Below, piece by piece: positions 10,505 to 29,755 of a stretch of DNA of 64,000 bases. The notes below the pieces were generated by a model. It was given only the letters and a program-made list of their open reading frames with translations, was not told the DNA's origin and ran no database searches. Made by a program: the position numbers and the translations under genes. This DNA comes from Nocardia aurea (lineage in GTDB: Bacteria > Actinomycetota > Actinomycetes > Mycobacteriales > Mycobacteriaceae): positions 496,001-560,000 of the forward strand of contig NZ_QCYJ01000021.1 in the NCBI RefSeq assembly GCF_003123685.1, read 5' to 3'. Positions within the stretch are counted from its first letter, which is position 1; each line of letters opens with the position of its first letter.

Positions 10505-10529
10505 TTAGTGTGCAACGCATTCACACTAA
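10505..10529. promoter_or_regulatory. Inverted repeat upstream of the PucR gene
   Basis: TTAGTGTG and CACACTAA form a perfect 8-bp inverted repeat with a 9-nt spacer. The spacing suits a dimeric regulator. The position directly before the PucR start suggests an operator. No experimental or database support is available to me. Confidence 0.45.
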
Positions 10530-11137
10530 CTGTGGCGAGGGGGGAATGGATCGATTCGGGTGGTTCTGAGAGTCCGAGAGTGGAACTGTCTCGAGGAGTC
10601 TTCGTCCGCGTCGACGCGCCCCTGTCTACCGATCGGTAATGAGAGGCGTCACATTTGCCTGCCGGACACATGGTTTGCCGCCTGTTTCGAACCGCTCCGG
10701 AACCCTCTTCTCGATAGTAAAAACACCGTTAACAAATTGTAATTCCCCTGGTAGCTGTGGTACCTCCAATTTTCTGATTTAAATACCGAGGAGTTGGTTT
10801 TTGGTATCCACCCTACGGTGCGATGAACTGACCGTGAACAGCGCGGTTTCCGATAATCGGAACTCCTCGCGTCCTCGGGTGCTTGGTGTCCCGAAATAAA
10901 GATGCCCCCAATTCATTGGGGAGAGTGTCTGGGACGCGTTGCGTCCATGTGTCCGACGCAAAGTGATGGCGTGACGCATCACATTCGGTCGAAAAGATAG
11001 CCACACACTTGCTTCTCGTTGAGAGATGCTGTCCGCCAGCACATTTGGAATTGCAGACATTTGATCTGCGGTGTACAGATTGGGACATGGCGCAACTGTG
11101 ATCGCTGACAGGTGCGTGAAGTGACGAGATATGACGC
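10530..11137. other. Long non-coding leader upstream of the ACP/aminolipid operon
   Basis: About 0.6 kb without a credible gene. Base composition is clearly more A+T-rich than the flanks around 10685-10800. It holds small inverted repeats, such as GGACGC-gtt-GCGTCC near 10932 and GTGATG/CATCAC near 10963, and three copies of a GACGCA word (about 10955, 10972 and 11133). The open frames on the minus strand here lack coding-like composition and run antisense into the ACP gene. It probably carries the operon promoter and its regulatory sites, but I cannot place -10/-35 elements with confidence. Confidence 0.4.
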
Positions 11138-11311
11138 ATGACAGTCTCGGTTGTTGATTCCGGAGGGCAAGTGATCGCAGTCTCGAGTGGCGTTGAATCA
11201 TGCATCGACCAGGGATTATTCGTGTTTCTTCCCGCGTCGGGCACCGCCGTCGCAGGTGTAGTGCCCGCCGCGGAATCGGTGGGCTCCGAGGTAGCCGGAG
11301 GGGGAAAATAA
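11138..11311 (+). CDS. Possible small leader peptide (57 aa) ahead of the ACP
   Basis: An ATG at 11138 opens a 57-codon frame, closed upstream by an in-frame TGA two codons earlier. An internal GTG at 11171 has a better ribosome site (GGAGGGCAA directly before it) and would give 46 residues. The TAA ends 2 nt before the ACP start, the kind of spacing seen for coupled genes. The peptide has one Cys (VESCIDQGLF) and an Ala/Val/Gly-rich second half. Third-position GC (about 60%) is lower than in the neighbours, so it may be regulatory or non-coding. I recognise no family. Confidence 0.3.
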   Translation: MTVSVVDSGGQVIAVSSGVESCIDQGLFVFLPASGTAVAGVVPAAESVGSEVAGGGK

Positions 11312-11313
11312 TC

Positions 11314-11565
11314 GTGTCCGATGAAATTACCGAGCGCGTCGGGGAACTCTTCCGCGCCGGACTTCAGGTGGCATACATAGATGTCGACACGCCATTGCTG
11401 GACTATGGCCTGGACTCCGTGCGATCCGCCGAAATCGTGATCGAACTCGAGCGCGCCTTCGGTGTCGAGCTGCTCGACGAAGAGGTCGCCACGCTCCATA
11501 CCGCGCGTGACGTGATCGACTGTGTTTCGGCGAAGTACCGCAGTCCCACCGAGGTCGGGGCATAG
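11314..11565 (+). CDS. Acyl carrier protein 1
   Basis: This is an 83-residue carrier protein of normal length. The phosphopantetheine site is GLDSVRSAE, with the Ser that would carry the 4'-phosphopantetheine arm. I chose the GTG at 11314 because GGAGGGGG lies about 9 nt upstream; a longer frame from 11200 lacks a good site. It opens the operon and lies 5 nt before the four-domain fusion gene. That fusion contains an acyl-ACP-reductase-like domain, so this ACP is a natural acyl donor to it. A second, related ACP lies at 18487. Confidence 0.9.
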   Translation: MSDEITERVGELFRAGLQVAYIDVDTPLLDYGLDSVRSAEIVIELERAFGVELLDEEVATLHTARDVIDCVSAKYRSPTEVGA

Positions 11566-11570
11566 GGTCC

Positions 11571-14500
11571 GTGGCATCGATAGCGCGACAGATCACGGCC
11601 CGAGTCCCCGGGGAACCGGACGTGACGCGGGAACTGTTCGACGATTTCGCCCGGCACAATCGTCCCGGGCTGGCGCGGTTGCTTCGCGCGTGTCACCTGG
11701 ACGTGGTGTACGCGGGCGCGGAGGGCGATCACCTGATCGGGGTCGACGGCACCCGCGTCCTCGACCTGGTCGGAGGCTTCGGAGCTGCGCTTTTCGGCCA
11801 TAATCACCCGGCGCTGGTGCGTGTGGCGACGGCCCGGTTGAACCAACAGCACCCCTTCGTGTCCCAGGGCAGCATTCGGCCGGGGGCCGCGCGTCTGGCC
11901 AGAAGACTCTCCGAACTGGTGGGGTCGACGACCGGTCGGGACTACGTGGTGACCCTCGGATCGACCGGTGCCGACGCGGTCGAGGCCGCGGTGCGACATG
12001 CCGCGGTGGCACACGCGCGACGTCTCGCCGACCTCAGGACCGAACTGCGGCGGGCGCTGCGCCGGGTACGTCGCGACGGCCTGGACACGGTGCGTCCGTT
12101 CACGGCGACTGGGACGGTGCCCGCGCTCGGCGATGTCGCGAACCTGTCGACCGCGGAAATCCTCGAGGATTCGCTGCGTGTCATCGATGCGGTCGAGGCC
12201 AGGGGACCGGTGTACCTTTCGCTGGCCAACGCGTTCCACGGGAAGTCCGCGGGCGCCTTCGCGTTGACCGAACAGGCCGACACACCTGCGGATCTCATCG
12301 TTCCCGGCCCGGAACGACACCGGCTCGCGGACTGGTCGCCCGACGCTGTCGGGCGCGCGTTCGCCGCGGAACTGCGCACCGTGTATCGAATCACGGTGGA
12401 CGGCGCGGGCAGGCCCTCGATGTCTCAGACATCGGTCTCGCCGATCGCCGCGGTCTTCGCCGAGCCGATCCAGGGCGAGGGCGGCGTGCGCGAAGTTCCC
12501 GTCGAAACCTTGGCCGCGTTGCGCGCGCTGGCCGACCGGCATTCGGCGGCGCTGGTCTTCGACGAGATCCAGTGCGGTATGGGACGGACGGGAACTTTTC
12601 TCGCCTCGGCGCCCTCGGGGGTCACGGCGGATTACTACCTGCTGTCGAAATCGCTCGGCGGTGGCTTGATGAAGATCTCGGCCCTGCTGGTCGACCGGGC
12701 CGCGTCGGTCTCCGATTTCGGTCGCTATCACACGTCCACGTTCGCCGACGACGAACTGTCCTGCGCGGTCGCCGAAGCCGCGCTCGACCTGTTGCACGAC
12801 AACCAGATCCGCATCTCCGATGCCGGTGCGCGGCTGCGTGCGCGGCTCGACGCGATCGCGAGCCGGTGGCCGCGTGTCATCGCGGGCGTGCGTGGACGCG
12901 GCCTGCTCCAGGGCATCGAAATCCTGCCGCCGACACCGGAATCGGCACTGCTGCGCGAGATCTGCGACCCCGACATGTTCGGCTACGTGGTGGCGGGCTA
13001 TCTGCTGCACACCCATCGGATCCGCATGCTGCCGACGCTGTCCGCGCCGACCACCCTGCGTATCCAGCCTTCGGCCTTCCTGTCCGAAGCGGATATGGTC
13101 CGGGTCGAGAACGCGCTCGACGAACTCGCCGCCCTGCTGCACCGTGGCGATCTGGCCACTCTGCTCGCGCATCTCGCGGTGCCCGCCGAGACGAGTTGGC
13201 CGGTGCCGGAGGAGAAATCGCCGTCGCCACGGCGGCTGCCGGAGGTCGCCAGAGCGTGGGACGCGCCGAACCGGGTCGTCTTCCTGGCCAATCTGCCCGA
13301 AGCGGCGGACCTGCGCAGATTCGCGCCCGAACTCGCCGAATGGTCCGACGAGCAGTTCGCGGCGCTGTTCGAGCGATTGCGCGGCGTGGCCGAACCGTTC
13401 GAACTCACCAGGCAACTGGTCACCTCGCCGACCGGCGCTACCGTCGAGGTCTGCCTGATCGCGGTTCCGATCTCGGCCGAGCAGATCATCGAATGCCAAC
13501 GGGCCGGGCACCGGGCCTGGCTGCGCGATCTGGTGCTGGAAGGCGTCGAACAGGCGATCACCCTCGGCGCGTCGGTCATCGGACTCGGCGGCTACACCTC
13601 GATCGTCACCAACGCCTCCCGCGATGTGGTCGAGGACGCCGTCACGGTGACGTCGGGAAACTCGCTCACCGCCGCGTGCGCCTTCGAGGTGGTGCGCAGT
13701 GAGCTGGAACGACTGGCGCCGGGGCAGCGCCGCGTCGGAATACTCGGCGCGCTCGGCAATATCGGCGCGGTGATGGCGGAATTGATCGCGCCGCTCGCCG
13801 ATTCGGTGGTCCTGGTCGGCAGGCCGGGATCGGCCAGGCGGTTGCGCAAGGTCGCCGCCGACCTCGCGGGCGTGACCGGCCCCGGTGTGCTGGAGATCAG
13901 CGAGGACCTCACCGTGCTGCGCGAATGCCATATCGTGCTGACCGCGACGAATTCCGCTGTGCCACCGCTGACTCCGGATCTGCTCGCCACCGATCACTCG
14001 GTGCTGGTCTACGATCTGGCCGTCCCGGGTGACGTGCATCCGGACGTCGCCGATCTGCCCGGCGTCACGCTGGTCTCCGGCGGCCGCATGGCGCTTCCGC
14101 TCGGCCAGACCCCTCCCTTTCCCGAAACCGGTCTGCCCGCCGGTGTCGTCTACGCGTGCATGGCCGAAACCCTGCTTCTCGGTTTCGAGCCGGGGACGGT
14201 CAGTCCCTCCTACGGCGGACTGACCGTCGCGGGTGTCAGGGCGGCCCGCGAGTTGGCGGCACGCCACGAGGTACGCCCGGTTCTGCTTCCGACAGGAGCC
14301 CCCATCGTGTCCGACAGTCCGATACTCGCGCCGATGTTTCTCGGCGCGCCCGATTTCGTCCCCGAACGAGCCGGCGGCAAGGCCGCTACCCTGCACGAAC
14401 TCGTCGCGGCGGGTTTCGAGGTGCCGCCGGGGTTCGTCCTGCCCGCCGATCTGGACCTCGACGAGGTCACCGACGACGACCTCACCCGCTGGGTGCAGGC

Positions 14501-17500
14501 GGTCGGCGGTTTCCCGGTCGCCGCGCGCTCGAGCGGGGTGCTGGAAGATCTCGACGACGCCAGTTTCGCCGGACAATACGAGTCGTACCTGGACATCGCC
14601 GACGTGACCGCGCTGCGCGGCCACATCACCGAGTGCCGGGATTCGGTGCACAACGACCGTGTCCGGACCTATCTGGCCAAACACGGCTACACCGAGGCGA
14701 CGGCGTCGGTGGCCGTGCTCGTGCAGCGCATGGTCGATGCCCGTTACGCCGGTGTGGGTTTCAGCATCGACGCGCTCAGCGGCAACGAGGACCAGGCGAT
14801 CGTGGAATCCTGTGCCGGACTGGGGGAGCGACTGGTCTCGGGCCACGTGACGCCGACGCGGTACACGCTGCGGCTGGTCGACGGCAGTGTCGTCGATCGG
14901 GACGCGGGCGGTGAGGATATCGACCTCGAGCCGACGGCGACGACCGGATTGGCCGCCCTGATGCTGGCGGTGCAGGCCTTCCGGCACCGGCCCCAGGACA
15001 TCGAATGGGCCATCGACGGCGCGGGCAAGTTGTGGTTGCTCCAGTCCCGTGCCATCACCGCCATCGGTTGGCGCACCGATATCGATCAGTTCTCCGACGC
15101 CGATCTGCGCGACGGCGGCGTCTCGGCCCGCGTCTGCACCCCGCTGATGTTCTCCCTGTACGACAACGCCTTCCAGTATTCGATGCAGGCGTTCTTCCAG
15201 CGGCTCAAACTGGCCGATCCCGGAGTCGAACCGGACTGGATGGCCATGTACTACGGCCGCGCCTACTGGAATGTCAGTGCGGTCAAGCAGTGCTTCTTCA
15301 AGATTCCCGGTTTCGACGAACAGCATTTCGACGACGACCTCGGCGTGCTGAACGAATACGGCGCCGACGGTCCGCACCGCACGCCGACCAACGCCAAGAC
15401 CATCGCCAGGGCGCTGCCCGCGGCGGTCGCGGTGCAGCAGAGCTACCGCGATCAGCTCGCGGCGGTCGACGCGTTCGCGGCGGAATGGCCCGCGAAATAC
15501 GCGGGATGGCGGACCCGGGTGCGCGATCTGGCACAGACCGACGAGGCGACTTTCGCCACCGACCTCGCCGACTGCCTGCTGACCTTCCACGCCGTCACCG
15601 AACGCACCTACTTCACCACCATCTACAACAACTCCAGTGTGCAAACCGATTTCAAGCAGGCGCTGGACAAGGTCGACGCCGCGACCGGCGGTACGACATC
15701 GGCCATCGACCTGATGGGCGGACTGGCCGATATCAGCCACATGCAGTTGCAGCGGGCGATCGTCGTCCTGCACGGTGTGGCCCGTGACCACGGCCTCGAC
15801 AGCGCCGAATGGGATGCTGCGCTGGCGGAATTCCTCGCCGAACAGGGCTTCCACGCCGACGCCGAACTGGATCTGACCTGCCCGCGCTGGTCGGAATCGC
15901 CCGAGCGAGTGCGCTCGATGATCTCGATCATGCTCGATCACGGCACCCCGCCCGCGGATCCCGATGTGTCGCTGGTGGATCAGCGCAAACGCTACGAGGA
16001 CGAATTCGCGGCGGTCCGGGCCAGGGTGCGGGCCAAGCCGCTGGTGCGGATGAAATTCGCCAAGGGCCTGGACAAGAACGTCGACCGGATGCGGCGGTAT
16101 CTGGTCGCGCGGGAACGGATGCGCGAATTCTCCTCGCAGTGCTACGCGATCGTGCGCGCCTATGTCGTCGAGGCCGGTGTCCGCCTCGCCGCGGCGGGCA
16201 CGCTCGACAGCGCCGACGACGTATTCCAGCTGACCATCCACGAACTGAGCGATCTGGTCTCGGGTCGGGTCGAAGTGGCCGAACTGGCCGACGCCATCGC
16301 CTATCGCGGCGCGATGTACGCCGGCTACCGCGATCTCGTCCCGCCGCACGAACTCGGCGGTGGCGTGACGGTCGGTGCGGTCCGTGACATCGGCGACGGC
16401 GATCTGACCGGACTCGGGTGCAGCCCGGGCGTCGCCGAGGGCACCGCGCGGGTGATCACCTCGCTGGCCGATATCGAACAATTGCGCGAGGGCGATATCC
16501 TCGTCACCCGCTTCACCGATCCCGGATGGACACCCGCCCTGGGCCTGGTGGCCGCCGTGGTGACCGAGGTCGGCGGCATGCTGTCCCACGCCGCGGTGAT
16601 CGGCCGCGAGTACGGCATCCCCGCCGTGCTGAACGTCGCGGGCGCGACGACGGCGATCCGCTCCGGACAACGCGTCCGCGTCGACGGCCGCGCCGGTGTG
16701 ATCTCGGTACTGGAAACCACGGATCCTCCGGAATCCCCGGAAGACGTTGTCCCACAGCAGAGCAGGATCGAATCGCGATCCGCACCGACCCGGGCTCCGG
16801 ACGGGCCACCGGAGGAGACGACAGGCACCGGTCTCACCGCGCCGACCTCCGACACTGTGGAAGAACTTGCGGCGGAACGTGTTCCCGCCATGGCGGGTAG
16901 CGCCGCCGCCGCGTCGACCGTTACCGCGCGGACCACGACGCGACCGGTGACGGCACTACCCGAACCCGCCCCCGCGTCCTCGGGAGACGCCGTCCGACCG
17001 GCACCGAGAAGGGATGAGAAACTGACCGCACGCAAGCGCCTGATCTGCATCGCGGGGGCCGACGGCTCCGGCAAGACCACGCAGGTCGCCAGGATCGCCG
17101 CGGAATTCGAGGCACAGGGCCAGAGTGTCGCCGCGGTGACCATCTGGGACGCTTTCCTCGATCCGAAGGTCTCCTCGAAACTGCCGTGGCGCAACCCCTC
17201 GGAGATCTACGGCTACCTCAAGATCCTGTCGCCGCTGAGCCGGGCGCACTTCCTTTTCCACGCGATGCAGCTGTCCTTCGACCTCGCCTCGGCGCGCGGC
17301 GTCGACATCATGCTCGCCAACGCCTACTGGTACAAGTACTACGCCACCGAGGTCGCCCACGGCGGCGATCCGACGGTGCTGCGTCAGCTCACCGCGGGAT
17401 TCCCGGAACCGGATCGCACCTTCTATCTGACCCTCAGTCCGCAGGACGCGTTGGGCCGCAAGCAATTGCGCAGCGACTACGAGAGCGGCTACGGCGACGA

Positions 17501-17648
17501 GAAGGCGTTCCTGGACTTCCAGCAGCAGAGCCACGAGGCGCTGGAGGCGCTGTCCTCGGAACTGGGCTGGGTGCGGCTGGACGGCACCGACGCGCCCGCC
17601 GCCATCACCAAGGACATCCTCGCGCAGTTGCGGGAGGACGACCGATGA
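11571..17648 (+). CDS. Four-enzyme fusion: class III aminotransferase / acyl-ACP-reductase-like / PEP-synthase-like / P-loop kinase
   Basis: A 2025-residue protein from a GTG. Residues about 25-540 are a PLP class III aminotransferase, with the VFDEIQCGMGRTG stretch and PLP lysine K360 in LLSKSLGGG. Residues about 555-910 resemble cyanobacterial acyl-ACP reductase: GLGGYTSI, SGNSLTA, the GALGNIG nucleotide loop, and C863 in YACMAETLLLGFE at the place of the catalytic Cys. Residues about 911-1716 resemble PEP synthase/rifampin phosphotransferase: ARSSGVLEDLDDASFAG in the ATP-binding part and phospho-carrier H1673 in GGMLSHAAVIGREYGIP. After a Pro/Thr/Ala-rich linker (about 1720-1820), residues 1822-2025 are a dTMP-kinase-like P-loop domain (GADGSGKTT, K1835). 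Plausible steps are reduction of acyl-ACP to aldehyde, transamination to an amine, and phosphoryl transfer. Each domain keeps its key residues. The next gene overlaps its stop by 4 nt. Confidence 0.9.
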   Translation: MASIARQITARVPGEPDVTRELFDDFARHNRPGLARLLRACHLDVVYAGAEGDHLIGVDGTRVLDLVGGFGAALFGHNHPALVRVATARLNQQHPFVSQGSIRPGAARLARRLSELVGSTTGRDYVVTLGSTGADAVEAAVRHAAVAHARRLADLRTELRRALRRVRRDGLDTVRPFTATGTVPALGDVANLSTAEILEDSLRVIDAVEARGPVYLSLANAFHGKSAGAFALTEQADTPADLIVPGPERHRLADWSPDAVGRAFAAELRTVYRITVDGAGRPSMSQTSVSPIAAVFAEPIQGEGGVREVPVETLAALRALADRHSAALVFDEIQCGMGRTGTFLASAPSGVTADYYLLSKSLGGGLMKISALLVDRAASVSDFGRYHTSTFADDELSCAVAEAALDLLHDNQIRISDAGARLRARLDAIASRWPRVIAGVRGRGLLQGIEILPPTPESALLREICDPDMFGYVVAGYLLHTHRIRMLPTLSAPTTLRIQPSAFLSEADMVRVENALDELAALLHRGDLATLLAHLAVPAETSWPVPEEKSPSPRRLPEVARAWDAPNRVVFLANLPEAADLRRFAPELAEWSDEQFAALFERLRGVAEPFELTRQLVTSPTGATVEVCLIAVPISAEQIIECQRAGHRAWLRDLVLEGVEQAITLGASVIGLGGYTSIVTNASRDVVEDAVTVTSGNSLTAACAFEVVRSELERLAPGQRRVGILGALGNIGAVMAELIAPLADSVVLVGRPGSARRLRKVAADLAGVTGPGVLEISEDLTVLRECHIVLTATNSAVPPLTPDLLATDHSVLVYDLAVPGDVHPDVADLPGVTLVSGGRMALPLGQTPPFPETGLPAGVVYACMAETLLLGFEPGTVSPSYGGLTVAGVRAARELAARHEVRPVLLPTGAPIVSDSPILAPMFLGAPDFVPERAGGKAATLHELVAAGFEVPPGFVLPADLDLDEVTDDDLTRWVQAVGGFPVAARSSGVLEDLDDASFAGQYESYLDIADVTALRGHITECRDSVHNDRVRTYLAKHGYTEATASVAVLVQRMVDARYAGVGFSIDALSGNEDQAIVESCAGLGERLVSGHVTPTRYTLRLVDGSVVDRDAGGEDIDLEPTATTGLAALMLAVQAFRHRPQDIEWAIDGAGKLWLLQSRAITAIGWRTDIDQFSDADLRDGGVSARVCTPLMFSLYDNAFQYSMQAFFQRLKLADPGVEPDWMAMYYGRAYWNVSAVKQCFFKIPGFDEQHFDDDLGVLNEYGADGPHRTPTNAKTIARALPAAVAVQQSYRDQLAAVDAFAAEWPAKYAGWRTRVRDLAQTDEATFATDLADCLLTFHAVTERTYFTTIYNNSSVQTDFKQALDKVDAATGGTTSAIDLMGGLADISHMQLQRAIVVLHGVARDHGLDSAEWDAALAEFLAEQGFHADAELDLTCPRWSESPERVRSMISIMLDHGTPPADPDVSLVDQRKRYEDEFAAVRARVRAKPLVRMKFAKGLDKNVDRMRRYLVARERMREFSSQCYAIVRAYVVEAGVRLAAAGTLDSADDVFQLTIHELSDLVSGRVEVAELADAIAYRGAMYAGYRDLVPPHELGGGVTVGAVRDIGDGDLTGLGCSPGVAEGTARVITSLADIEQLREGDILVTRFTDPGWTPALGLVAAVVTEVGGMLSHAAVIGREYGIPAVLNVAGATTAIRSGQRVRVDGRAGVISVLETTDPPESPEDVVPQQSRIESRSAPTRAPDGPPEETTGTGLTAPTSDTVEELAAERVPAMAGSAAAASTVTARTTTRPVTALPEPAPASSGDAVRPAPRRDEKLTARKRLICIAGADGSGKTTQVARIAAEFEAQGQSVAAVTIWDAFLDPKVSSKLPWRNPSEIYGYLKILSPLSRAHFLFHAMQLSFDLASARGVDIMLANAYWYKYYATEVAHGGDPTVLRQLTAGFPEPDRTFYLTLSPQDALGRKQLRSDYESGYGDEKAFLDFQQQSHEALEALSSELGWVRLDGTDAPAAITKDILAQLREDDR

Positions 17649-18490
17649 CCCGCCGCGTCGCCATCGTCGGTATCGACGGCGCGGGCAAGTCCTCGGTCAT
17701 GGCCCGGTTGCGTGAACTCGCACCGACCGGGGATCCCGATGCCTTCGCCGCCATGACCTGCCCGGATTTCCACAACACCCGTGATGTCCCGCTCACCGAG
17801 TTGTCCACGCAGCTCAAGGCCTTCAGCGTCGGATGCGACGAGATCTCCAGCCTGGAGATGAAGGCGACGGCCATGTATTTGCAGATGACGCTGTTCGGTC
17901 CGGTGGAGCGGCATTTCCTCGATACCTGGTCTCCGGATGTGCTGGTGTTCGAACGTCATCCGCTGATCGAACTCCAGGTCTACGGACCGCTGTACGTGGC
18001 GCTGGCCGGGCCGGATTGGAACGGTCACGACCGCGAACACGAGATCGCGGCGGTGCTGGAGCGGCATCGACCAGGAACATTCGACGACATTCTGGCCTGG
18101 CAGCACAGCCAGGCGGCGCGATTGGGCAGCGCGCGCGACATCTGGTCGCTGCTGTCGGAGATCGCCGATCTGGTCGGACGCGATATCACGGCGTCGGTCG
18201 CCGGATTCGCGGCCCGGTTCCGCACGACCCTGCCCGATGCCGTGCTCTGGCTCGATGTTCCGCCCGAGCAGGCCGCGGTCCGATGCGCGCGGCGATCCGG
18301 CGAGGGCATGGAGGAGGCGCACGAGACGGCGGAGCGTCTGGCGATGCTGCGCGAGGGATACCTGCGGGTTCGCGACACCCTGGCCTCGGCATTCCCCGAG
18401 ATCGGATTCCATCGCATCGACACCGCAGACGGCGTCGATCTGGACGAGTCGGTTCGCGCCTGCGTGAGGGAAGGAAAACTCTTCGGATGA
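17645..18490 (+). CDS. P-loop nucleoside/nucleotide-kinase-like protein
   Basis: A 281-residue P-loop protein that starts with the Walker A sequence VGIDGAGKSS. A DxxxxFER segment (DVLVFERHPL) and a lid-like Arg-rich stretch (AAVRCARRSGEGMEE) follow. It looks like a distant thymidylate-kinase relative and is probably a paralogue of the kinase domain fused to the preceding protein. The ATG overlaps that gene's stop (ATGA). The real substrate is unlikely to be dTMP, given the carrier-protein and lipid-enzyme context. Phosphorylation of a pathway intermediate is an inference. Confidence 0.75.
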   Translation: MTRRVAIVGIDGAGKSSVMARLRELAPTGDPDAFAAMTCPDFHNTRDVPLTELSTQLKAFSVGCDEISSLEMKATAMYLQMTLFGPVERHFLDTWSPDVLVFERHPLIELQVYGPLYVALAGPDWNGHDREHEIAAVLERHRPGTFDDILAWQHSQAARLGSARDIWSLLSEIADLVGRDITASVAGFAARFRTTLPDAVLWLDVPPEQAAVRCARRSGEGMEEAHETAERLAMLREGYLRVRDTLASAFPEIGFHRIDTADGVDLDESVRACVREGKLFG

Positions 18491-18738
18491 GTGCACAAAC
18501 CCGTTCCACCGCCGAGATCGAGTCACGGGTCCGTGCCATCGTCGGCGAGGTGCTGTGGGTCGCCGCGGACGACATCCGCGCCGCCGCGCCGCTCATCGAT
18601 TACGGCCTCGACTCACCGACCGCTATCGAGTTGACCATCCAGCTGGAGCAGGCGTTCGGCATCGAGATCCCCGAGGACGCCGCGTCGCGATTGAACACCG
18701 TCGACGACATCGTCGCCTACGTCCGGGACGACTCGTGA
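18487..18738 (+). CDS. Acyl carrier protein 2
   Basis: An 83-residue carrier protein with the attachment motif GLDSPTAIE. It overlaps the preceding kinase stop (ATGA), and the following fatty acyl-AMP ligase overlaps its own stop (GTGA). FAALs load acyl chains onto a dedicated carrier, and the adjacent position makes this ACP the likely partner. It has the same length as ACP 1 and shares the IDYGLDS/LDYGLDS surroundings, so the pair probably arose by duplication. Confidence 0.9.
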   Translation: MSAQTRSTAEIESRVRAIVGEVLWVAADDIRAAAPLIDYGLDSPTAIELTIQLEQAFGIEIPEDAASRLNTVDDIVAYVRDDS

Positions 18739-21853: not shown

Positions 21854-24603
21854 AGAGGCAGAACTCTATGAATCCGACAGATACCGGCACCGTGGTGCCC
21901 GCCTCGGTACTGGCCGAATCCGGGACACCGGACGACACCGCGCTGTTCGGCGCCAAGGCCGCGAACCTGGGCAGGCTGCTCGCCGCCGGGTACCGCGTCC
22001 CGCCGTTCGTGGTGGTGCCGACGCGGGCGTGCGCGGAGATCCTGGCCCCGGTGGCCGACGCCGTCGCCGAAATCCTGACGACCCTCGACCACACCGATTC
22101 CGCGTCACTGCGTTCGGTGTCCGCCGATATCCGAGCGTTGATCCTCGATCTGTCACTGCCGGAGTCGGTGTCGGCCGGACTCGAATCCGCGCTCGCCGAA
22201 TTGGCCGACGGGCCGGTACGGCTCGCGGTGCGATCATCGGTCAGCGGTGAGGATTCGGCCACCGACTCCTTCGCCGGGCAGCTCGACACCTTCCTCAACG
22301 TCGCCCCCGAAGCGGTACCTCGTGCCGTGCTCGGCGTCCTCGCCTCGGCGTACTCGGAGCGGTCGCTGTTCTACCGGGCCCACCGCGGGCTCGACAACGG
22401 CGGCGTCGACTGCGCCGTGCTGGTGCAGGTACTGGTCGACAGCGCCGTCGCGGGGGTGGCGTTCAGCTGTAATCCGCAGACCGGCGACCCCGCCGAATCC
22501 GTGGTCTCGGCGGCACTCGGTCTCGGCGAGGGGGTGGTCGCGGGCACGGTCGAATGCGATACCTATTTCCTCGACAACGCCTCGGGCGCCATCGTGTCCA
22601 GGAGTGTGGCGGACAAGCGCCACCGCGTCGTGGCCGACGGTGCGAAGGGCACCGTGGTGGCCGCGATCGAGGGCGGTGACACCGCGCCCGCGTTGACCGA
22701 CGCGCAGGTGACCGAATTGGCGCGCACCGCCGCGCGGCTCGCCGAAACATTCGGCGCCCCACAGGATATCGAATGGGCCTACGACGTCGACGGCACGCTG
22801 TTCCTGTTGCAGGCGCGTCCGGTCACCGCGACCGGCGCGCGCGAGACCATCTTCGACAACGTCAATGTCGCCGAATCGTATCCGGGACTGTCGAGCCCGC
22901 TGACCTTCTCGATTCTGCGCGCGGCCTACGAGCAGGTGTTCCGCGCCTGCCACCGGGATTTCGGCGCGACCGCCGAGATCGTCGACCGCAACGCCGCCGA
23001 TCTCTACCCGTATCTGGTCGGCACCGCACACGGGCGGATCTACTACAACATCAGCAACTGGTATCGGCTCTTCCTCCAGATCCCCGGCATGGAATTCGCG
23101 ATCGAAGGGTGGGAGGCCGCGCTCAATATCGAGAACCGCTACCGGCGTCCCGCCGCTCCCGAACGCGGATTCGCGCGGTTGCGTATGTACGCGCTGCGGG
23201 TGCGAGTCATCGCGATCATCGCCTTCGGCTGGCTGCGGCTGCCACGTCGACTCCGGGCATTCTTCACCGAACTGGCCGCGTTCACCGCCGATCTCGACCA
23301 TCGTCTGGCGCCGGAGACGCCCGCGCGCGAACGTGATCCGGAAGCGCTGCTGCAATGGACCGAGCGCTGCCTGAACGAACTGGTACCCGCCTACTCGGTG
23401 CAGATCTTCAACGATTTCCTCGCCCAGCAACTCTTCCACGTCGTCGGACAACTGCTCGAGCGCAAGGGCCTCGACGAATCCGAGGCCATCACGTTGCGCA
23501 ACGAATTGTTCTGCGGCGAGGAAGGCGTCGACAGCGTCGACCCGGTCCGTTCGGCACTGGAGCTGACAGCGACCATCAGGGCCGACGCGGAACTGCGTGC
23601 ACTGTTCGAGGGACCGCTGGACGCACACGCCGTCTGGAAGACGCTGGCACAGCGCGAATTCGGTACCTTCCGGGCCGCGTACCTGCGTCACATCGCCCTG
23701 TTCGGCGACCGCACCGTCGACGAACTGAAACTCGAGACCGATCCGCTGGGCGAACACCCGCAACGGCTCGTGCCGATGCTGCGCAACTACCTGCGCGGCG
23801 GTCAGAACATCGATGACATGGCCGCGCGCGAGAAGGCGATCCGGCGTGAGGCCGAGGCCACGGCGACGGCTCTGTTCCGCGGCGGCAGCGCCGTCGAACG
23901 GCTCGCGTTCCGGTTCGCGCTGGGCCGGGCCCGCGAACATGTCAAGCAGCGCGAGAACATGAGACTCGGACGCAGCCGTTCCTTCGGCCTGATCAAACGG
24001 GTGTTCCGGGAATTCGGCACGCAATTCCACGAGGCCGGGCTGCTGGAGCGGCCACGCGACATCTTCTGGCTGACCTACGAGGAGATCGCCGCGCTGACCA
24101 GGGGTACCGCCGTCGACACCGATGTCGCCAGGACGGTGCGGACCCGCCACGGCGACCACGAACGCTGGCGGGCCGTGGCGATGCCGTCGCGCATCGTCAC
24201 CACCGGGATCGCCGCGACCGAGATCAACGATCCGGCCCTGGAAGCGCCGCCGACCGACGCCGACACCTCGCAGAAGGTTCTGCGCGGCATCGGTTGCGCG
24301 CCGGGACGGGTCGAGGCCTCCGCGCTTGTCCTGGGCACACCCGATCCCGACGTGGAGATCGACGGACAGATCCTGGTCGCCTCCACCACCGACCCCGGCT
24401 GGGTGTTCCTCATGGTCGCGGCCGGTGGCCTGATCAGTGAACGGGGCAGCGTGCTGTCCCATACCGCGATCATCGGGCGCGAACTCGGAATTCCTACCGT
24501 GGTGGGAGTTCCCGGCGTCACCCGATTGGTCGCCAGCGGCGACCGGCTGGCACTCGACGGCCGCGCAGGCACCGCGACGATCCTGGACGAGGACCCATCA
24601 TGA
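21850..24603 (+). CDS. PEP-synthase / rifampin-phosphotransferase-like protein
   Basis: A 917-residue relative of PEP synthase and rifampin phosphotransferase. The N-terminal ATP-binding part has GAKAANLGRL and AVRSSVSGEDSATDSFAGQ. A long middle region follows (about 330-800). The C-terminal swivelling domain has phospho-carrier H871 in GSVLSHTAIIGRELGIP. Family members transfer a phosphate from ATP through this His to a small molecule. This is the second copy of the module fused in the 2025-residue protein. Start 21850 overlaps the P450 stop; an alternative ATG lies at 21868. The acceptor is unknown: pyruvate is possible, but a hydroxyl or amino group on the pathway product is also plausible. 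Confidence 0.85.
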   Translation: MKRQNSMNPTDTGTVVPASVLAESGTPDDTALFGAKAANLGRLLAAGYRVPPFVVVPTRACAEILAPVADAVAEILTTLDHTDSASLRSVSADIRALILDLSLPESVSAGLESALAELADGPVRLAVRSSVSGEDSATDSFAGQLDTFLNVAPEAVPRAVLGVLASAYSERSLFYRAHRGLDNGGVDCAVLVQVLVDSAVAGVAFSCNPQTGDPAESVVSAALGLGEGVVAGTVECDTYFLDNASGAIVSRSVADKRHRVVADGAKGTVVAAIEGGDTAPALTDAQVTELARTAARLAETFGAPQDIEWAYDVDGTLFLLQARPVTATGARETIFDNVNVAESYPGLSSPLTFSILRAAYEQVFRACHRDFGATAEIVDRNAADLYPYLVGTAHGRIYYNISNWYRLFLQIPGMEFAIEGWEAALNIENRYRRPAAPERGFARLRMYALRVRVIAIIAFGWLRLPRRLRAFFTELAAFTADLDHRLAPETPARERDPEALLQWTERCLNELVPAYSVQIFNDFLAQQLFHVVGQLLERKGLDESEAITLRNELFCGEEGVDSVDPVRSALELTATIRADAELRALFEGPLDAHAVWKTLAQREFGTFRAAYLRHIALFGDRTVDELKLETDPLGEHPQRLVPMLRNYLRGGQNIDDMAAREKAIRREAEATATALFRGGSAVERLAFRFALGRAREHVKQRENMRLGRSRSFGLIKRVFREFGTQFHEAGLLERPRDIFWLTYEEIAALTRGTAVDTDVARTVRTRHGDHERWRAVAMPSRIVTTGIAATEINDPALEAPPTDADTSQKVLRGIGCAPGRVEASALVLGTPDPDVEIDGQILVASTTDPGWVFLMVAAGGLISERGSVLSHTAIIGRELGIPTVVGVPGVTRLVASGDRLALDGRAGTATILDEDPS

Positions 24604-25907
24604 CCGCATCACCGGTATCCCCGCCCGTGGCGGGCCACGGCGAGAACTTCAGTCTGGAGCACTATCTCGACAGTGGGGCACACACCTTCGAGCAGCGTTT
24701 CGACGATTTCCGGCCCTATGTCACCAATGCCAGGGGCACCGGATTCGTGCTGCGCGAGATCACCGGCCCCGCCGGACCCGTGGTGCGGGTCCGCGATCCC
24801 GACGGCGGCGAGATCCGCGAGCTGATCATGCTCGGCTCCAACAACTATCTCGGCCTGGGCAACGAGCCGGAGATCATCGAGGCGGCCGTCGCGGCGACCC
24901 GCGAATTCGGTATCGGCTGCGGCGGGCCGCCGCTGCTCAACGGCACCACCTCGCTGCATCGGCGACTCGAGGACCGCCTCGCCGAGACCAAGGGATGTGA
25001 GGCGGCCCTGGTCTTCTCCTCCGGCTATGCCGCCAATGTCGGGTGGGTGACCGGGCTGCTGCGCAACGGCGACATCCTGCTCTACGACGAGCAGAGCCAC
25101 GCGAGCCTCTACGACGGCATCCAACTGGGCAGGGTTCGCTCGATGGCCTTCGAGCACAACGATATGGGCCATCTGCGCCACCGCCTGATGCAGGTGCGCT
25201 GGCGCAATCCCGGTGCGAATATCGTCGTCGCGGTCGAAGGCGTGTACTCGATGGACGGCGATATCGCGGCACTGCCGCAGATCCGCGCGCTGTGCGATTC
25301 GTTCGGCGCCTGGCTGGCGATCGACGACGCGCACGGCACCGGGGTGCTCGGCGCGCGGGGGCACGGCACCGCCGAACATTTCGATATGCCCGACGGCGCG
25401 GTCGAGTTGTATATGGGCACCTTCTCGAAGGTATTCGCGACCACCGGCGGATTCGTGGCCGGATCGCGCGATCTGGTCGACACCCTGCGCTTCTTCGCCA
25501 GGTCCTACATGTTCTCCGCGTCGCTGTCACCGGCGGTGGTCGCCTCGGTACTGGCGTCGATCGATTTCATCGATGAGCATCCCGAGCGCATTCGCCGATT
25601 GCACGACAACACCGACTATTTCGTGCGCGAACTGCGCCGCATGGGTTTCGCTGTCGACCCGCAGACGGCCATCATCCCGATTCTGGTGCCGCAGCGGCTC
25701 GCGGTCGCCGAGGTGGTGGCGGCCCTGCATCGGGCGGGCGTGTTCGTCAACGGCGTCGAATTCCCCGCGGTGCCCCGCGAACAACAGCGACTGCGAATCT
25801 CCATGATGGCCACGCTCACCCGTGACCAGCTCGATTTCGCGCTCGAACAGATAGCCGCCGTCGCGCGGAACTTCGGATTCCATCCAGAACAGGAGGGCGA
25901 CGCATGA
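24600..25907 (+). CDS. Alpha-oxoamine synthase (AONS/KBL/SPT family)
   Basis: A 435-residue fold-type I PLP enzyme. Family marks are MLGSNNYLGL, GCGGPPLLNGT, the cofactor Asp/His of IDDAHGTGVLG, and PLP lysine K277 in MGTFSKVFATTGG. The family decarboxylatively condenses an amino acid with an acyl thioester, giving an alpha-amino ketone (for example serine palmitoyltransferase, 8-amino-7-oxononanoate synthase). No biotin genes are nearby. FAAL, ACPs, a lipid-kinase-like gene and an SDR share the operon, so a sphingoid-type long-chain amino ketone is a good guess. Start and stop both overlap the neighbours by 4 nt. Confidence 0.88.
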   Translation: MTASPVSPPVAGHGENFSLEHYLDSGAHTFEQRFDDFRPYVTNARGTGFVLREITGPAGPVVRVRDPDGGEIRELIMLGSNNYLGLGNEPEIIEAAVAATREFGIGCGGPPLLNGTTSLHRRLEDRLAETKGCEAALVFSSGYAANVGWVTGLLRNGDILLYDEQSHASLYDGIQLGRVRSMAFEHNDMGHLRHRLMQVRWRNPGANIVVAVEGVYSMDGDIAALPQIRALCDSFGAWLAIDDAHGTGVLGARGHGTAEHFDMPDGAVELYMGTFSKVFATTGGFVAGSRDLVDTLRFFARSYMFSASLSPAVVASVLASIDFIDEHPERIRRLHDNTDYFVRELRRMGFAVDPQTAIIPILVPQRLAVAEVVAALHRAGVFVNGVEFPAVPREQQRLRISMMATLTRDQLDFALEQIAAVARNFGFHPEQEGDA

Positions 25908-27298
25908 CCGAGATCGCGACGGGTGGTTCGGCGCCCGAACGGCTGCTGGTCCTCGCGGCCCTCGCCGCACCGAGTGCCGACGAACGGGTCGAACTCGCGA
26001 AACTGGCGCACGAGGTGACGGACTGGCCGGAATTCCTGGCCCTGGCCCGCCTCAACGCGACGGTGCCGCTGGTGCAACGCCGACTGGAGGCCGAGGAACT
26101 GTTCGGACTCGTGCCGGAACCGGTCGCCACCGAATTCCGTACCGTGACAGATCATATCGGCGCGGTGAACGACCGCAGACTGGCGGGCGCACTGGAACTG
26201 CTGCGGCGCTTCGACGAACGCGGGGTGCGCTGCGTCGTTCTCAAGGGGATGCTGTTCTCCGCCGAGATCTATCACGATCCGCGCTACAAACGCATGAACG
26301 ACCTCGACATCCTGATCGAACTGGATCAGGTCGAGACCGCGATCGAGATCTACCGGGAACTGGGGCTTTTCGCTACCTCGGAGTTGCTGGGCAAGGCCCC
26401 CAAGGTGCGCGCGGAACGGTCGCATCATCTGCCGTCGTTCGTCTCGCGCGACGGCGCGCTCGTCGTCGGCACGCACTGGGGCCTGATCACCCCGCTGACC
26501 CCGTACACCATCGACTACGCCGCCATCTGGGAGCGGGTGCGGCGCATAGATTTCTACGGCGTGCCCGCCTGGGCGATGGCCGACGAGGACAATCTGCATC
26601 ACCTGGGCATCCACCTGCCCTACTACAAGACCGGGGTGCGCGAACTCGGCGACATCTGGAACCTCGCGCGTCACGCGACCGACCTGGACTACGGCCTGCT
26701 CGAACGTGAGATCAGCCGGGCGGGGACCGAAAGCCTGATGTACCACGCGTTGTCGCTGTCGCACCGGCTGGTGCCGTCACCGGATTTCGCCCGTCTGCTC
26801 ACCGGGCTGCGGCCGCGAATCACCCGATTCACCCGCTACGACACCGCGCGCAAGATCGCCGACATCTCCGCCCTGCTTCGCAGTCGCTCGACCCACACCT
26901 CCCGAATCGAGAAGGCGTACACCGAATTCAACATGACCGCGGTCGCGCACGAGAAGCGCGAGAGTTTCGCCCGGCTCTGGAAGGATCTGCTGGCTGTGCC
27001 CGGCGACGAAGCGGCGCGGATGAGTTCGCTGCGCGCGCCGGGTCCGCTCTCGGCGGTCGGCGCGCGGGTTTCGGCACCGTATCGACTGACCAGGGTGTTC
27101 CAGCGGGACCTCGGCCGCTGGCTGTTTCCCGCTGCCCTGGCGAAGACGGTCGTCGATCTGGGCGCCGCCTACGGAGCCGAGGCGACGCGCAGGGTGCGCG
27201 GACGCGGACGGGCGGTGCGCCCCGGGATCGAGGACTACGCGGCCGAACTCGGCCTGACCCGCGCCGACCTGCAAGCCGTTCTGGACAGTCAGGAATGA
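25904..27298 (+). CDS. Nucleotidyltransferase-like protein (NTP_transf_5 type)
   Basis: A 464-residue protein. The KGMLFSAEIYHDPRYKRMND stretch, followed at once by LDILIE, matches the pattern of the uncharacterised nucleotidyltransferase family PF14907: a basic/Gly start, then a paired-Asp MNDLDIL motif. Members of this group occur in natural product and capsule clusters, and their reaction is mostly unknown. It overlaps both neighbours by 4 nt. A head-group transfer (for example adenylyl or cytidylyl) to a phosphorylated lipid would fit, but that is inference. Confidence 0.7.
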   Translation: MTEIATGGSAPERLLVLAALAAPSADERVELAKLAHEVTDWPEFLALARLNATVPLVQRRLEAEELFGLVPEPVATEFRTVTDHIGAVNDRRLAGALELLRRFDERGVRCVVLKGMLFSAEIYHDPRYKRMNDLDILIELDQVETAIEIYRELGLFATSELLGKAPKVRAERSHHLPSFVSRDGALVVGTHWGLITPLTPYTIDYAAIWERVRRIDFYGVPAWAMADEDNLHHLGIHLPYYKTGVRELGDIWNLARHATDLDYGLLEREISRAGTESLMYHALSLSHRLVPSPDFARLLTGLRPRITRFTRYDTARKIADISALLRSRSTHTSRIEKAYTEFNMTAVAHEKRESFARLWKDLLAVPGDEAARMSSLRAPGPLSAVGARVSAPYRLTRVFQRDLGRWLFPAALAKTVVDLGAAYGAEATRRVRGRGRAVRPGIEDYAAELGLTRADLQAVLDSQE

Positions 27299-28044
27299 CG
27301 GGCGCGGTAGGGCAGCACCCGCGCACGGTTCTGTGGGATCTGGACGGCACCCTCGTCGGCCTGCGCAAACGCACCTTCAAGACGGTGATGCCGCTGACGG
27401 CGGCGCTGTCGTTCCGCGATCTGACACCGCCGCACCGGTTCCTGCGGATCCTGCCCGGGATCATGAGACAGGTGCGCGGCAACGACACCGAGCACACCAA
27501 TACCGACCTCATGGTCGAATTGCTGGCGCGTGGACTCGGCGTCCCGGCCGAGATCGCCCGGCTGCGGCTCGGCCGCTTGACCGAGGTGGATTTCGCCCGG
27601 CTGCGGGCGTGTTTCCCGGCGCTTCCCGCCGCCGTGGCGACGGTGGCGGACCTGCGCGCTGCGGGCGTCGCACAGGTGGTCGCGACCAATCCGCTCTGGC
27701 CGTTGGCCTCGGCGACCACCCGATTGGGCTGGGGCGGACACGATCCGGCCGATTTCGACTTCATCACCAGCGGCGAGACCATGCGGCGGTCGAAGCCGCG
27801 GGTCGAGTTCTACCACGAACTGCTCGAACGTTTGGCCGTCGAGCCGCGACAGTGCGTGATGATCGGCAACGACGCCGCCAACGATGCCCCCGCGGCCCGC
27901 GCGGGTATCCCGGTCTTCCTGATCGGCGCGGCGAAAAGCGCCGTGCCCGAGGAATGTTCGCGGACCGGACTGGTATCCACGGGCAATTGGCCCCGGCTGC
28001 GCGAATGGCTGGGTATCGAGGAGAGGTCATGCTCGTCGTCCTGA
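27295..28044 (+). CDS. HAD-superfamily hydrolase
   Basis: A 249-residue HAD protein. Motif I is VLWDLDGTLVG with both aspartates. The fourth motif is MIGNDAANDAPAA, and a cap-like insert lies between them. ATN in VVATNPLW may be motif II. It is probably a phosphatase acting on a pathway intermediate. The start overlaps the preceding stop. The next gene starts 16 nt before this one ends, behind a GAGGAGAGG site inside the gene. Confidence 0.85.
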   Translation: MTGAVGQHPRTVLWDLDGTLVGLRKRTFKTVMPLTAALSFRDLTPPHRFLRILPGIMRQVRGNDTEHTNTDLMVELLARGLGVPAEIARLRLGRLTEVDFARLRACFPALPAAVATVADLRAAGVAQVVATNPLWPLASATTRLGWGGHDPADFDFITSGETMRRSKPRVEFYHELLERLAVEPRQCVMIGNDAANDAPAARAGIPVFLIGAAKSAVPEECSRTGLVSTGNWPRLREWLGIEERSCSSS

Positions 28045-28982
28045 ATCCCCAATCCAACGCCGGTACCGCGCCGCGGCGCTGGGAACCGGTGGAACAGCTA
28101 CTGCGACAGCGGTATCCGGCGCTGACCGTGGAACTGCCCGCCGACGCCGAACAGGCGACGAAACTGGTCAGAGCGCATATCGACAACCACGCGGACCGCA
28201 CGCCGGGACCCATCGTCGCGGCGGGCGGCGACGGCATGGTGAACCTGGTGCTCAATGCCGTCATGGATCCGGAAACCGATCGTCCGCGTCGCGGGGCCGA
28301 GGAGATAGCGCTCGGCGCGGTCGGACTCGGCAGCTCCAACGACTTCCACAAACCGCTCCGCTCGGAGTCGATGATCGCCGACGTCGCGGTCCGCGTCGAC
28401 GCGGACCGCGCGGAACGGGTCGATGTCGGCAAGGTGAGCATGCTGCTGCCCGACGGCACGCGCGCGGTGCGGTACTTCCTGCTCAACGCCAGCATGGGCC
28501 TGGTCGCCGCGGGTAACGACTCGTTCAACCACGCGAGCGGTGTCGTCGGTTGGCTGAAGTCCAGGAATGTGGAGGCCGCCATCGTCGCGACCGCGCTGGC
28601 CAATATCGCCACGCACACGCCGCTTCGGGTCGAGATACGCGGCACCGATTGGGAACACCGGACGCCGATCACGAATATCGCGGTGATCAAGAGCGTGCAT
28701 TTCGCGGGCGGCATGTACTACGACACCCCGGTGACCCGTGCCGACGGCCACTTCGATGTGAATATCTGGGACGCCGTGGGACGAGCGCGCGTCCTCGCCC
28801 TCATCGCGGGGCTCTACCGTGGCAAATTCAGCACGTCGACGGCGGCGATCTGCCATCGCGACACCGCCGTCGAACTGCGTCCAGACCGTCCCGCCCCGTT
28901 GGAATTGGACGGTGAGATCACCGTGGTCGAATCCGCGCGCCTGGAAGTGCTGCCGCGGGTACTGAAGGTGTGCGCGGCATGA
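28029..28982 (+). CDS. Diacylglycerol-kinase-like lipid kinase
   Basis: A 317-residue protein of the DAGK catalytic family. It starts LVVLNPQSNAG and has AAGGDGMVNLVLNAV (the family GGDGT loop with Met for Thr) and GLGSSNDF (usually GTANDFA). The family includes bacterial lipid kinases (YegS), sphingosine kinases and DAG kinase, which phosphorylate a lipid hydroxyl with ATP. Together with the oxoamine synthase and SDR it suggests phosphorylation of a long-chain amino alcohol. ATG at 28029 is favoured by the GAGGAGAGG site. Confidence 0.8.
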   Translation: MLVVLNPQSNAGTAPRRWEPVEQLLRQRYPALTVELPADAEQATKLVRAHIDNHADRTPGPIVAAGGDGMVNLVLNAVMDPETDRPRRGAEEIALGAVGLGSSNDFHKPLRSESMIADVAVRVDADRAERVDVGKVSMLLPDGTRAVRYFLLNASMGLVAAGNDSFNHASGVVGWLKSRNVEAAIVATALANIATHTPLRVEIRGTDWEHRTPITNIAVIKSVHFAGGMYYDTPVTRADGHFDVNIWDAVGRARVLALIAGLYRGKFSTSTAAICHRDTAVELRPDRPAPLELDGEITVVESARLEVLPRVLKVCAA

Positions 28983-29755
28983 GCGTCGTGCTGGTCACCG
29001 GCGCCGCCAACGGAATGGGCGCGGCGACCGCGAAATATCTGGCGGGCCTGGGCTATACGGTCGAGGCGTGCGATCGCCTCGACGGCGACGGTCACGCCAC
29101 CGTGGATGTCAGGGATACCGAGGCCGTCGATGCCTGGGTCGGGTCGGTACTCGACCGGCACGGCCGTATCGACGCGGTGGTCACCTTCGCGGCGTACGGG
29201 GTCGTCGGCTCGGTCGAGGAGACCGGGCCGGACGAGGCCGCCGACCTGTTCGACACGAACGTCCTCGGCACCCACCGCGTCGTGCGGGCCGCCATGCCGA
29301 CCATGCGCGCCCAGGGCGCGGGCCGGGTGGTCGTGGTGAGTTCGGGCGCGGGAGCGATCGCCGAGCCCTACGGCGGCTGGTACTCGGCGACCAAAGCGGC
29401 GGTGGAGCGTCTCGGCGAGGCGCTGCGGATGGAGGTCTCACAGTTCGGCGTGCGGGTCTCGGTTCTGGCCCCGGGGTGGACGGTCACCCCGATCATCGAT
29501 TCGTCGCTGCGGGTCACCCGGCCGATCGCCGACTACGACGCGGATCGCGGCGCGGTGCTGACGAGGGTGAGCGGATATCTCGCGCAGGGACAGCAGGCCG
29601 AGGAAGTTGCCAGAAAAGTGCAGGAGATCCTGTCCGCCGCGAGACCGCGCCAGACCTATCTGTGCGGCAACGACGTTCGGCTCTCCTTCTGGACCAGGCG
29701 ACTGGTGTCCGGACGGATGTACGAACGCCTGGTCCGGGGCTATTACGGGATTTGA
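28979..29755 (+). CDS. Short-chain dehydrogenase/reductase
   Basis: A 258-residue classical SDR with the nucleotide loop TGAANGMG and the YSATK catalytic pair. The usual NNAG is replaced by TFAAYG. The ATG at 28979 overlaps the lipid-kinase stop. A GTG at 28970 would add three residues. As the last gene of the coupled operon, it may reduce the ketone made by the oxoamine synthase, as 3-ketosphinganine reductases do; this is an inference. Confidence 0.85.
   Translation: MSVVLVTGAANGMGAATAKYLAGLGYTVEACDRLDGDGHATVDVRDTEAVDAWVGSVLDRHGRIDAVVTFAAYGVVGSVEETGPDEAADLFDTNVLGTHRVVRAAMPTMRAQGAGRVVVVSSGAGAIAEPYGGWYSATKAAVERLGEALRMEVSQFGVRVSVLAPGWTVTPIIDSSLRVTRPIADYDADRGAVLTRVSGYLAQGQQAEEVARKVQEILSAARPRQTYLCGNDVRLSFWTRRLVSGRMYERLVRGYYGI

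Follow-up and report, generated by a model that had tools for sequence, protein, structure and literature searches.

What is made by twelve tightly packed genes in which enzymes for activating fatty acids stand beside kinases of several kinds? The question is raised by positions 11314-29755 of a 64,000-nt stretch (contig NZ_QCYJ01000021.1; the window is this whole stretch) of the 9.37-Mb genome of Nocardia aurea, where all 12 genes lie on the + strand. Judging from the sequences and by analogy with characterised relatives, we are confident that the operon forms a fatty amine. That the 12 genes act together as one operon whose product is a phosphorylated amino-lipid, assembled from this fatty amine and an amino alcohol derived from an alpha-oxoamine synthase (AONS), is a reading to which we give about an even chance; everything past the fatty amine we infer. 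The genes, and the domains of the large fusion protein, are as follows.

11314..11565, + strand: ACP1, acyl carrier protein (PF00550, 3e-11; DSV attachment serine)
11571..17648, + strand: fusion protein of 2025 aa with four domains (Pfam and PDB matches for each)
Fusion aa ~1-540, + strand: class III aminotransferase (Pfam; nearest PDB chain CrmG, 1.1e-65; pyridoxal phosphate (PLP) Lys 360)
Fusion aa ~560-905, + strand: acyl-ACP/thioester reductase (best PDB match PigE, 4ppm, 8.1e-14, then cyanobacterial acyl-ACP reductase, AAR, 7.1e-5; Cys 863)
Fusion aa ~925-1725, + strand: RPH-type dikinase, PEPS-A (dikinase match 3e-64; swivel His; Arg-Glu pair)
Fusion aa ~1820-2020, + strand: P-loop kinase of the thymidylate kinase group (Pfam; Walker A)
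17645..18490, + strand: second P-loop kinase, deoxynucleoside/thymidylate kinase fold (PF02223, 4e-6; AlphaFold model)
18487..18738, + strand: ACP2, acyl carrier protein (PF00550, 3.5e-15; DSP serine)
18735..20462, + strand: FAAL, fatty acyl-AMP ligase (PF00501, 6e-63; 3pbk, 1.1e-87)
20459..21853, + strand: cytochrome P450 (PF00067, 3.4e-72; intact heme loop FGWGAHLCVG)
21850..24603, + strand: second RPH-type dikinase, PEPS-B (PF01326 and PF00391; 5hv2, 4.6e-65)
24600..25907, + strand: AONS (PF00155; serine palmitoyltransferase (SPT) 3a2b, 2.9e-85)
25904..27298, + strand: NTP_transf_5 nucleotidyltransferase-like protein (PF14907, 2.4e-39; LKG and NDLDIL motifs)
27295..28044, + strand: HAD-family phosphatase-like protein (PF00702, 1.8e-15; DLDGT)
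28029..28982, + strand: DAGK/YegS-type lipid-kinase-like protein (PF00781, 1.8e-17; PF19279, 1.3e-14; GGDGM)
28979..29755, + strand: SDR, short-chain dehydrogenase (PF00106, 7.5e-37)

At nine of the 11 gene junctions, start and stop codons overlap by 4 nt as ATGA or GTGA (with ATG 28979 as the SDR start); the others are a 5-nt gap between ACP1 and the fusion gene and a 16-nt overlap between the HAD and DAGK genes. Start codons are inferred, and a codon-usage caller favoured later starts for some of the genes. An earlier note on this DNA had described 4-nt overlaps throughout, from 11138 to 29755: its end point and nine junctions stand, and its start gives way to that of ACP1 at ~11314. All the enzyme families that it named were recovered, in one direction and with intact catalytic motifs, by Pfam and NCBIfam searches of the operon proteins, including its two units likened to phosphoenolpyruvate (PEP) synthase and its two P-loop kinases, one of each being a domain of the fusion.

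The first step is the best anchored. The N-terminal half of the fusion has the domain architecture and residues of TamH, the transaminase-reductase of tambjamine biosynthesis, and the operon encodes an acyl-adenylating enzyme and an acyl carrier protein (ACP) beside it, namely FAAL (its best relative of solved structure is the fatty acyl-adenylate ligase 3pbk) and ACP1. In 14 aligned sequences, that of the window included, the PLP lysine K360, the reductase cysteine C863, and the nucleotide loop G-x-x-G-N-I are invariant; at the third Gly of the loop, five of the 14 have Cys, whereas the window has Gly. According to the available excerpts of PMC9594044, TamH and TamA, the latter adenylating the substrate and bearing an ACP, turn a fatty acid into an amine in a one-pot reaction in vitro (C12 acid to C12 amine), with l-Glu as amino donor and C7-C14 aldehydes accepted by the transaminase; distant TamH homologues of unassigned role are mentioned in Streptomyces. 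The ACP loading, reduction to aldehyde, and amination proposed in the earlier note are thus well supported by domain architecture, catalytic residues, and precedent. Its "undescribed" needs splitting: the aminotransferase-reductase pairing is known, TamH having the same domain order, and an operon of this content was not found in the open full-text literature (subscription journals not covered). What is new lies in the wiring, in the dikinase core shared between phyla, and in the lipid neighbours, and not in the amine step. New enzymes turning fatty acids into amines, if the assignment is right, are of possible practical use. As a separate observation, the reductase domain (window 13250-14370) is 41-56% conserved versus 57-82% for the aminotransferase among Nocardia clusters with both matched, its catalytic residues being invariant.

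In actinobacterial clusters both long and short, the gene immediately before the aminotransferase-reductase is a match to ACP1, and the trio of ACP1, aminotransferase-reductase, and FAAL also occurs in Streptomyces, Saccharopolyspora, Actinokineospora, Rhodococcus, and Micromonospora. Nine short clusters with long flanks (L040-L044, L050, L054, L058, and L061) have no dikinase match above 50 bits within 10 kb, and L043 has no FAAL match either. ACP2 finds no match in the short actinobacterial cassettes or in N. mexicana.

The two dikinases carry the next part of the argument. Both have an N-terminal ATP-grasp domain, a C-terminal swivel His, and an Arg-Glu pair, and both finish in the swivel domain without a pyruvate domain. 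PEP synthase proper is therefore ruled out in spite of the name of the best NCBIfam models. The excerpted text of PMC4844700 states that RPH (rifampin phosphotransferase) needs the Arg-Glu pair for the second transfer and that enzymes of its group are commonly misannotated as PEP synthase. The nearest PDB chains, 5fbs and 5hv2, are titled PEP synthase; we take them as RPH because their numbering fits that of the Listeria RPH, Arg666-Glu667 included (PMC4844700, as excerpted). In the fused PEPS-A the RPH alignment starts only at residue 107, the first lobe being shortened with its GGK lysine motif retained. The top NCBIfam models of both belong to the PRK06241 group (653.6 bits nearly full-length for PEPS-B, 303.3 bits for the fusion, under cut-offs of 883 and 972), and the equivalog NF041857 (rifamycin-inactivating phosphotransferase) scores them at 291.1 and 307.3 bits (cut-off 999). 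A tree of 22 dikinase sequences places PEPS-A in a first group (support 94/99) and PEPS-B in a second (99/99), which also contains an unlinked paralogue from Nocardia, long-branched and unsure in its placement.

The second kinase, of which 22 sequences were aligned, just passes PF02223 (27.1 bits, cut-off 27). Its AlphaFold model (pLDDT 87) superposes on deoxycytidine kinase with Z 17.5 (root-mean-square deviation 3.1 over 213 residues) and on bacterial thymidylate kinases with Z up to 16.7, a tie. The model thus supports a deoxynucleoside/thymidylate kinase fold, which gives no substrate. Thymidylate kinase proper was rejected, as the NCBIfam dTMP kinase model scores 29.5 bits versus a cut-off of 83.25; a PDB sequence search returned nothing meaningful, and a PHROGs scan only a thymidylate kinase family (1.2e-7). 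The NTP_transf_5 model (pLDDT 75) has weak fold matches to nucleotidyltransferases (E 0.02-0.11).

The AONS begins what we call the second arm. It is a fold-type I PLP enzyme with a TFSK lysine and the stacking His, and its sequence assigns it to the alpha-oxoamine synthases; by score the choice between SPT and BioF is undecided, with SPT_CFB at 366.6 bits (cut-off 640) and BioF at 364.8 (cut-off 426). Two other SPT models also stay below their marks (327.7 vs 500; 254.4 vs 670). Eleven orthologues are 73-91% identical to the AONS of the window, and in all 12 aligned sequences the GSR loop of SPT is replaced by GPP. The companion SDR has KdsR as its third-best match (1.9e-44; 152 bits vs cut-off 400). 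The AONS cannot be called an SPT, and the SDR falls below the KdsR cut-off. In four of nine orthologues (D16R12, N. altamirensis, G092, and G099; L142 6629-8245, L143 435-2075, L123 1084-2736, and L125 1075-2727) the SDR gene runs on into a second domain that is absent from the SDR of the window and is an S-adenosylmethionine-dependent methyltransferase by Pfam in both orthologues run.

How stable is this assembly? The full gene order from ACP1 to SDR is unchanged in 10 of 11 further Nocardia loci, as far as their sequence reaches (that of G066 stops within the DAGK gene), and because the order recurs, we do not regard the operon as a chance arrangement. About 1.3 kb of additional DNA lies between the NTP_transf_5 and HAD genes in G053, and in G066 the fusion is split over two overlapping frames, so that this copy may be broken or misread. 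The dN/dS values of 0.089-0.245 (six genes, three orthologues each) point to purifying selection. At E 1e-60, 28 of 150 Nocardia genomes, counting the own one, carry the second kinase; even draws across the order and the phylum returned only the own genome (1/397 and 1/396), having by chance included no other carriers. In G1452, its copy is only 45% identical, and there the fusion's kinase domain and the second kinase are encoded by two small separate genes lying side by side (L166 3558-5026); the contig measures 5 kb, with the remaining operon genes outside view.

Two loci are particularly informative on how the operon was put together. That of Mycobacterium sp. D16R12 has the same gene set as the Nocardia operon, with the aminotransferase-reductase (904 aa) and the dikinase (~900 aa) in separate frames and a kinase match that begins past the dikinase end. 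Since the parts of the fusion are separate there, the fusion arose within this cluster family; that they follow one another as consecutive reading frames (L053 9941-16587) is as expected for working partners. N. mexicana, the eleventh Nocardia locus, retains a second dikinase, ACP1, FAAL, the separate kinase on the other strand, and a fusion of 1942 aa with the kinase domain inside it (56% over 222 aa). Over the 36 kb examined, the AONS, ACP2, P450, NTP_transf_5, HAD, DAGK-like, and SDR proteins have no match; genome-wide, the AONS finds at best a match of 36%. Co-occurrence of AONS and fusion, the check suggested in the earlier note, is found in 10 of the 11 Nocardia loci and broken in N. mexicana. 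Because the amine, dikinase, and kinase part is present there without the AONS, it appears to function on its own, and the two arms look separable, in line with the earlier idea of a separate AONS condensation.

The same core is found well beyond the actinobacteria. A TamH-type enzyme with a dikinase is seen in Pseudomonadota, Myxococcota, and Spirochaetota genomes. We counted eight non-actinobacterial aminotransferase-reductase loci (L057, L059, L062, L156, L157, L158, L159, and L160), having dropped a ninth before counting (L060, also numbered L161, whose 5.9 kb of contig show no dikinase). In five of the eight a stand-alone dikinase adjoins the aminotransferase-reductase; in L057, a sixth, it shares the cluster. 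First-group dikinases accompany the enzyme in six loci, second-group ones in three (L059, L156, and L157). Around these cores lie lipid genes. Genes for a CarS-like synthase of cytidine diphosphate (CDP) lipids occur in three of the eight loci (L057 and L059 by Pfam, L159 by tblastn at 55%) and a CDP-alcohol transferase in two (L057 and L059), so that L159 has the CarS-like gene of the pair alone. UbiA-like genes are found in L059, L156, and L157, that of L156 by tblastn and reading frame and that of L059 just under the Pfam cut-off (33.4 vs 34.2). A phospholipid methyltransferase (PEMT) lies in L059 and a DUF3419 gene in L157; we take DUF3419 to be the BtaA betaine-lipid family. MMPL genes lie near the core in L059, L158, and N. 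mexicana, and in L057 by tblastn only. It is mainly because homologous cores adjoin CDP-lipid genes that we favour a lipid product.

With these pieces, a route can be sketched. FAAL would convert a fatty acid to its acyl-AMP and load it onto ACP1 (and ACP2). The fusion reductase would then take the acyl group from ACP1 onto its cysteine and release the aldehyde, to be turned into a long-chain amine by the aminotransferase domain, which sits on the same polypeptide; up to this point the scheme leans on sequence together with characterised relatives. In the other arm, for which family membership is the guide, the AONS may condense an ACP2-bound acyl group with an amino acid, with loss of CO2, to an alpha-amino ketone, which the SDR would reduce towards a sphingosine-like base; the P450 may hydroxylate a chain. 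Finally, the two RPH-type dikinases, the two deoxynucleoside/thymidylate kinase-like kinases, and the DAGK-like kinase would add phosphates, the nucleotidyltransferase-like protein might activate or transfer a nucleotide-linked group, and the HAD protein might remove a phosphate. The order and acceptors of this last stage, and the meeting of both arms in one molecule, we infer. Given its two dikinases, the DAGK-like and deoxynucleoside/thymidylate-fold kinases, and the CDP-lipid neighbours elsewhere, the phosphorylated amino-lipid anticipated in the earlier note is the likeliest outcome.

A wider proposal is possible, and we advance it tentatively: that these loci specify a new class of bacterial amino-phospholipids, with a TamH-type enzyme and one or two dedicated RPH-type dikinases as an ancient backbone core and the headgroup supplied by a CarS-like protein plus CDP-alcohol transferase or by DUF3419, Nocardia having fused the core into one protein and supplemented it with kinases of its own and a sphingoid-like AONS arm. 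If so, a range of bacteria carry an amine-containing lipid that has not been looked for, and RPH-type dikinases, often annotated as PEP synthases, have a natural role in lipid assembly.

Several points weigh against a lipid. In L158 (with only 3.5 kb of downstream sequence) and L160, the visible stretch has an aminotransferase-reductase but no dikinase; with the nine short actinobacterial clusters, these loci indicate that the amine enzyme also contributes to other products. A CarS-like gene is present in six of 14 well-known control genomes, two of the six being bacteria, and was matched (E 0.001) in 17 of 146 genomes drawn around that of L059, itself included (15 above cut-off); such genes are thus uncommon there, not exclusive. 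L057, L059, and L062 come from metagenome-assembled genomes. Among the 12 Nocardia operon genes, Pfam finds neither a CarS-like gene nor one for a CDP-alcohol transferase, UbiA, or an acyltransferase, and none of the 12 obviously joins the two arms. In the dikinase tree, the support of the first group is just below the mark of the tool, and seven of the 22 rows deviate in composition. Last, the dikinases match the ligase models PigC and RedH (5e-86 to 9e-77) almost as well as RPH, and a distribution as patchy as 28 of 150 Nocardia genomes would suit a secondary metabolite no less than a lipid.

These last two points, together with the TamH-like amine module and a PucR-type regulator (85-90% identity) that lies close by in four related loci, speak for a secreted small molecule of the tambjamine kind, with the amine as its tail and the dikinases as PigC/RedH-like, ATP-driven ligases coupling it to an aldehyde or ketone from the AONS arm. 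We hold this to be rather unlikely, yet worth keeping in mind. NF041857 outscores both PigC and RedH on either dikinase (291 vs 259 and 259; 307 vs 278 and 289), even if a different Rph model gives less (198 and 233); moreover, such a product leaves the kinases, the nucleotidyltransferase, and the phosphatase unexplained, and homologous cores elsewhere adjoin CDP-lipid genes. An improbable alternative is a sphingolipid pathway proper, in which the AONS acts as SPT, the SDR as 3-ketosphinganine reductase, and the DAGK-like protein as sphingosine kinase, the fatty amine being a separate branch. The Sphingobacterium SPT is indeed the best solved relative of the AONS, SPT_CFB narrowly its top NCBIfam match, and KdsR high among the SDR matches; against this, both scores lie far below the curated cut-offs, BioF ties with SPT, GPP invariably replaces GSR, and no ceramide-synthase-like gene is among the 12. 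An azoxy or other N-N product (of the elaiomycin, azodyrecin, or valanimycin type), joining the fatty amine to an amino-acid-derived unit, had been suggested by the amine, AONS, and kinase content, and VlmJ of the valanimycin pathway is a DAGK-like kinase. As far as the excerpts of PMC9379638 go, the azodyrecin route is proposed to begin with a fatty acid turned into an aldehyde and transaminated, and valanimycin biosynthesis uses the kinase VlmJ. However, VlmH/VlmR, VlmA, and VlmO/VlmB are not among the 12 operon genes, whose Pfam matches are of other kinds; we set this idea aside as very improbable, the genes common to such clusters not being in the operon.

The surroundings of the operon contain three further features.

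3-9227: end of a large nonribosomal peptide synthetase (NRPS), upstream of the operon
9262-10671: the PucR-type regulator, upstream of the operon
29934-30410: HAD-like protein, 178 nt past the SDR

The NRPS was tried as a member of the system and rejected: it gave one 44% local match (G043) in 11 clusters, and among the named loci only matches of 38-39%, which lie in short clusters. The HAD-like protein was left outside the operon because, among the loci examined, it has a counterpart only in G053 and, in rearranged form, in N. xishanensis. Window positions 10001-12000, which cover the non-coding DNA before ACP1, have a G+C content of 0.61 versus ~0.69 on either side.

Other genomes offer side observations. 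In Streptomyces halstedii, S. scabiei, and Saccharopolyspora (L042 4053-14454, L041 4060-14436, and L058 4289-14406), the amine trio is preceded by genes with similar starts; in L042, Pfam identifies these as an AurF-like N-oxygenase, a nitronate monooxygenase, an alpha/beta hydrolase, and a phosphopantetheinyl transferase, with a class II tRNA-synthetase-like protein just under the cut-off. These clusters look like the source of another fatty-amine product. In Nocardia G012 (L167 29-8806), a frame of 2925 aa has, by eye, a start like that of a polyketide synthase (PKS) and an aminotransferase-like stretch inside, and is followed by P450-like, FAAL-like, and MMPL genes.

How, then, does the operon compare with known systems? 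The cyanobacterial nocuolin A cluster likewise unites FAALs and ACPs, an aminotransferase, an acyl-ACP reductase, and a kinase, whereas its genes are separate and include PKS/NRPS and an N-monooxygenase; the available excerpts of PMC5333925 do not mention dikinases. The PRK06241-group models, named "Phosphoenolpyruvate synthase", are the best NCBIfam match of both dikinases, yet their cut-offs are not reached and the Nocardia dikinases have no pyruvate domain; we know of no function for this group. RPH shares with them the ATP-grasp domain, swivel His, and Arg-Glu pair, but the Nocardia operon has no rifamycin context, its scores are 291-307 bits versus 999, and the N-lobe of the fused copy is shortened. 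With SPT, BioF, and KBL, the Nocardia AONS has in common the family, the PLP lysine, and the stacking His motifs, and differs in reaching no curated cut-off and in its conserved GPP loop. PigC of prodigiosin biosynthesis belongs to the same dikinase superfamily, but its NCBIfam cut-off is not reached here. PigE of the same pathway is the best solved match of the fusion reductase (4ppm, the name being taken from the excerpts of PMC9594044), and differs in the opposite order of its two domains and in an NCBIfam cut-off that is likewise not reached. Genes for the bipyrrole (MBC) core of such pigments are not among the 12 proteins beyond below-cut-off superfamily matches to PigE, PigC, and RedH (rest of the genome not searched). 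Finally, TamA/TamH of tambjamine YP1 in Pseudoalteromonas tunicata differs in that the adenylation enzyme and ACP of Nocardia are separate genes and its aminotransferase-reductase is also fused to a dikinase and a kinase; what the two systems share, as far as the excerpts of PMC9594044 describe it, is the activation of a fatty acid on an ACP and an N-terminal class III transaminase followed by a C-terminal thioester reductase with a catalytic cysteine.

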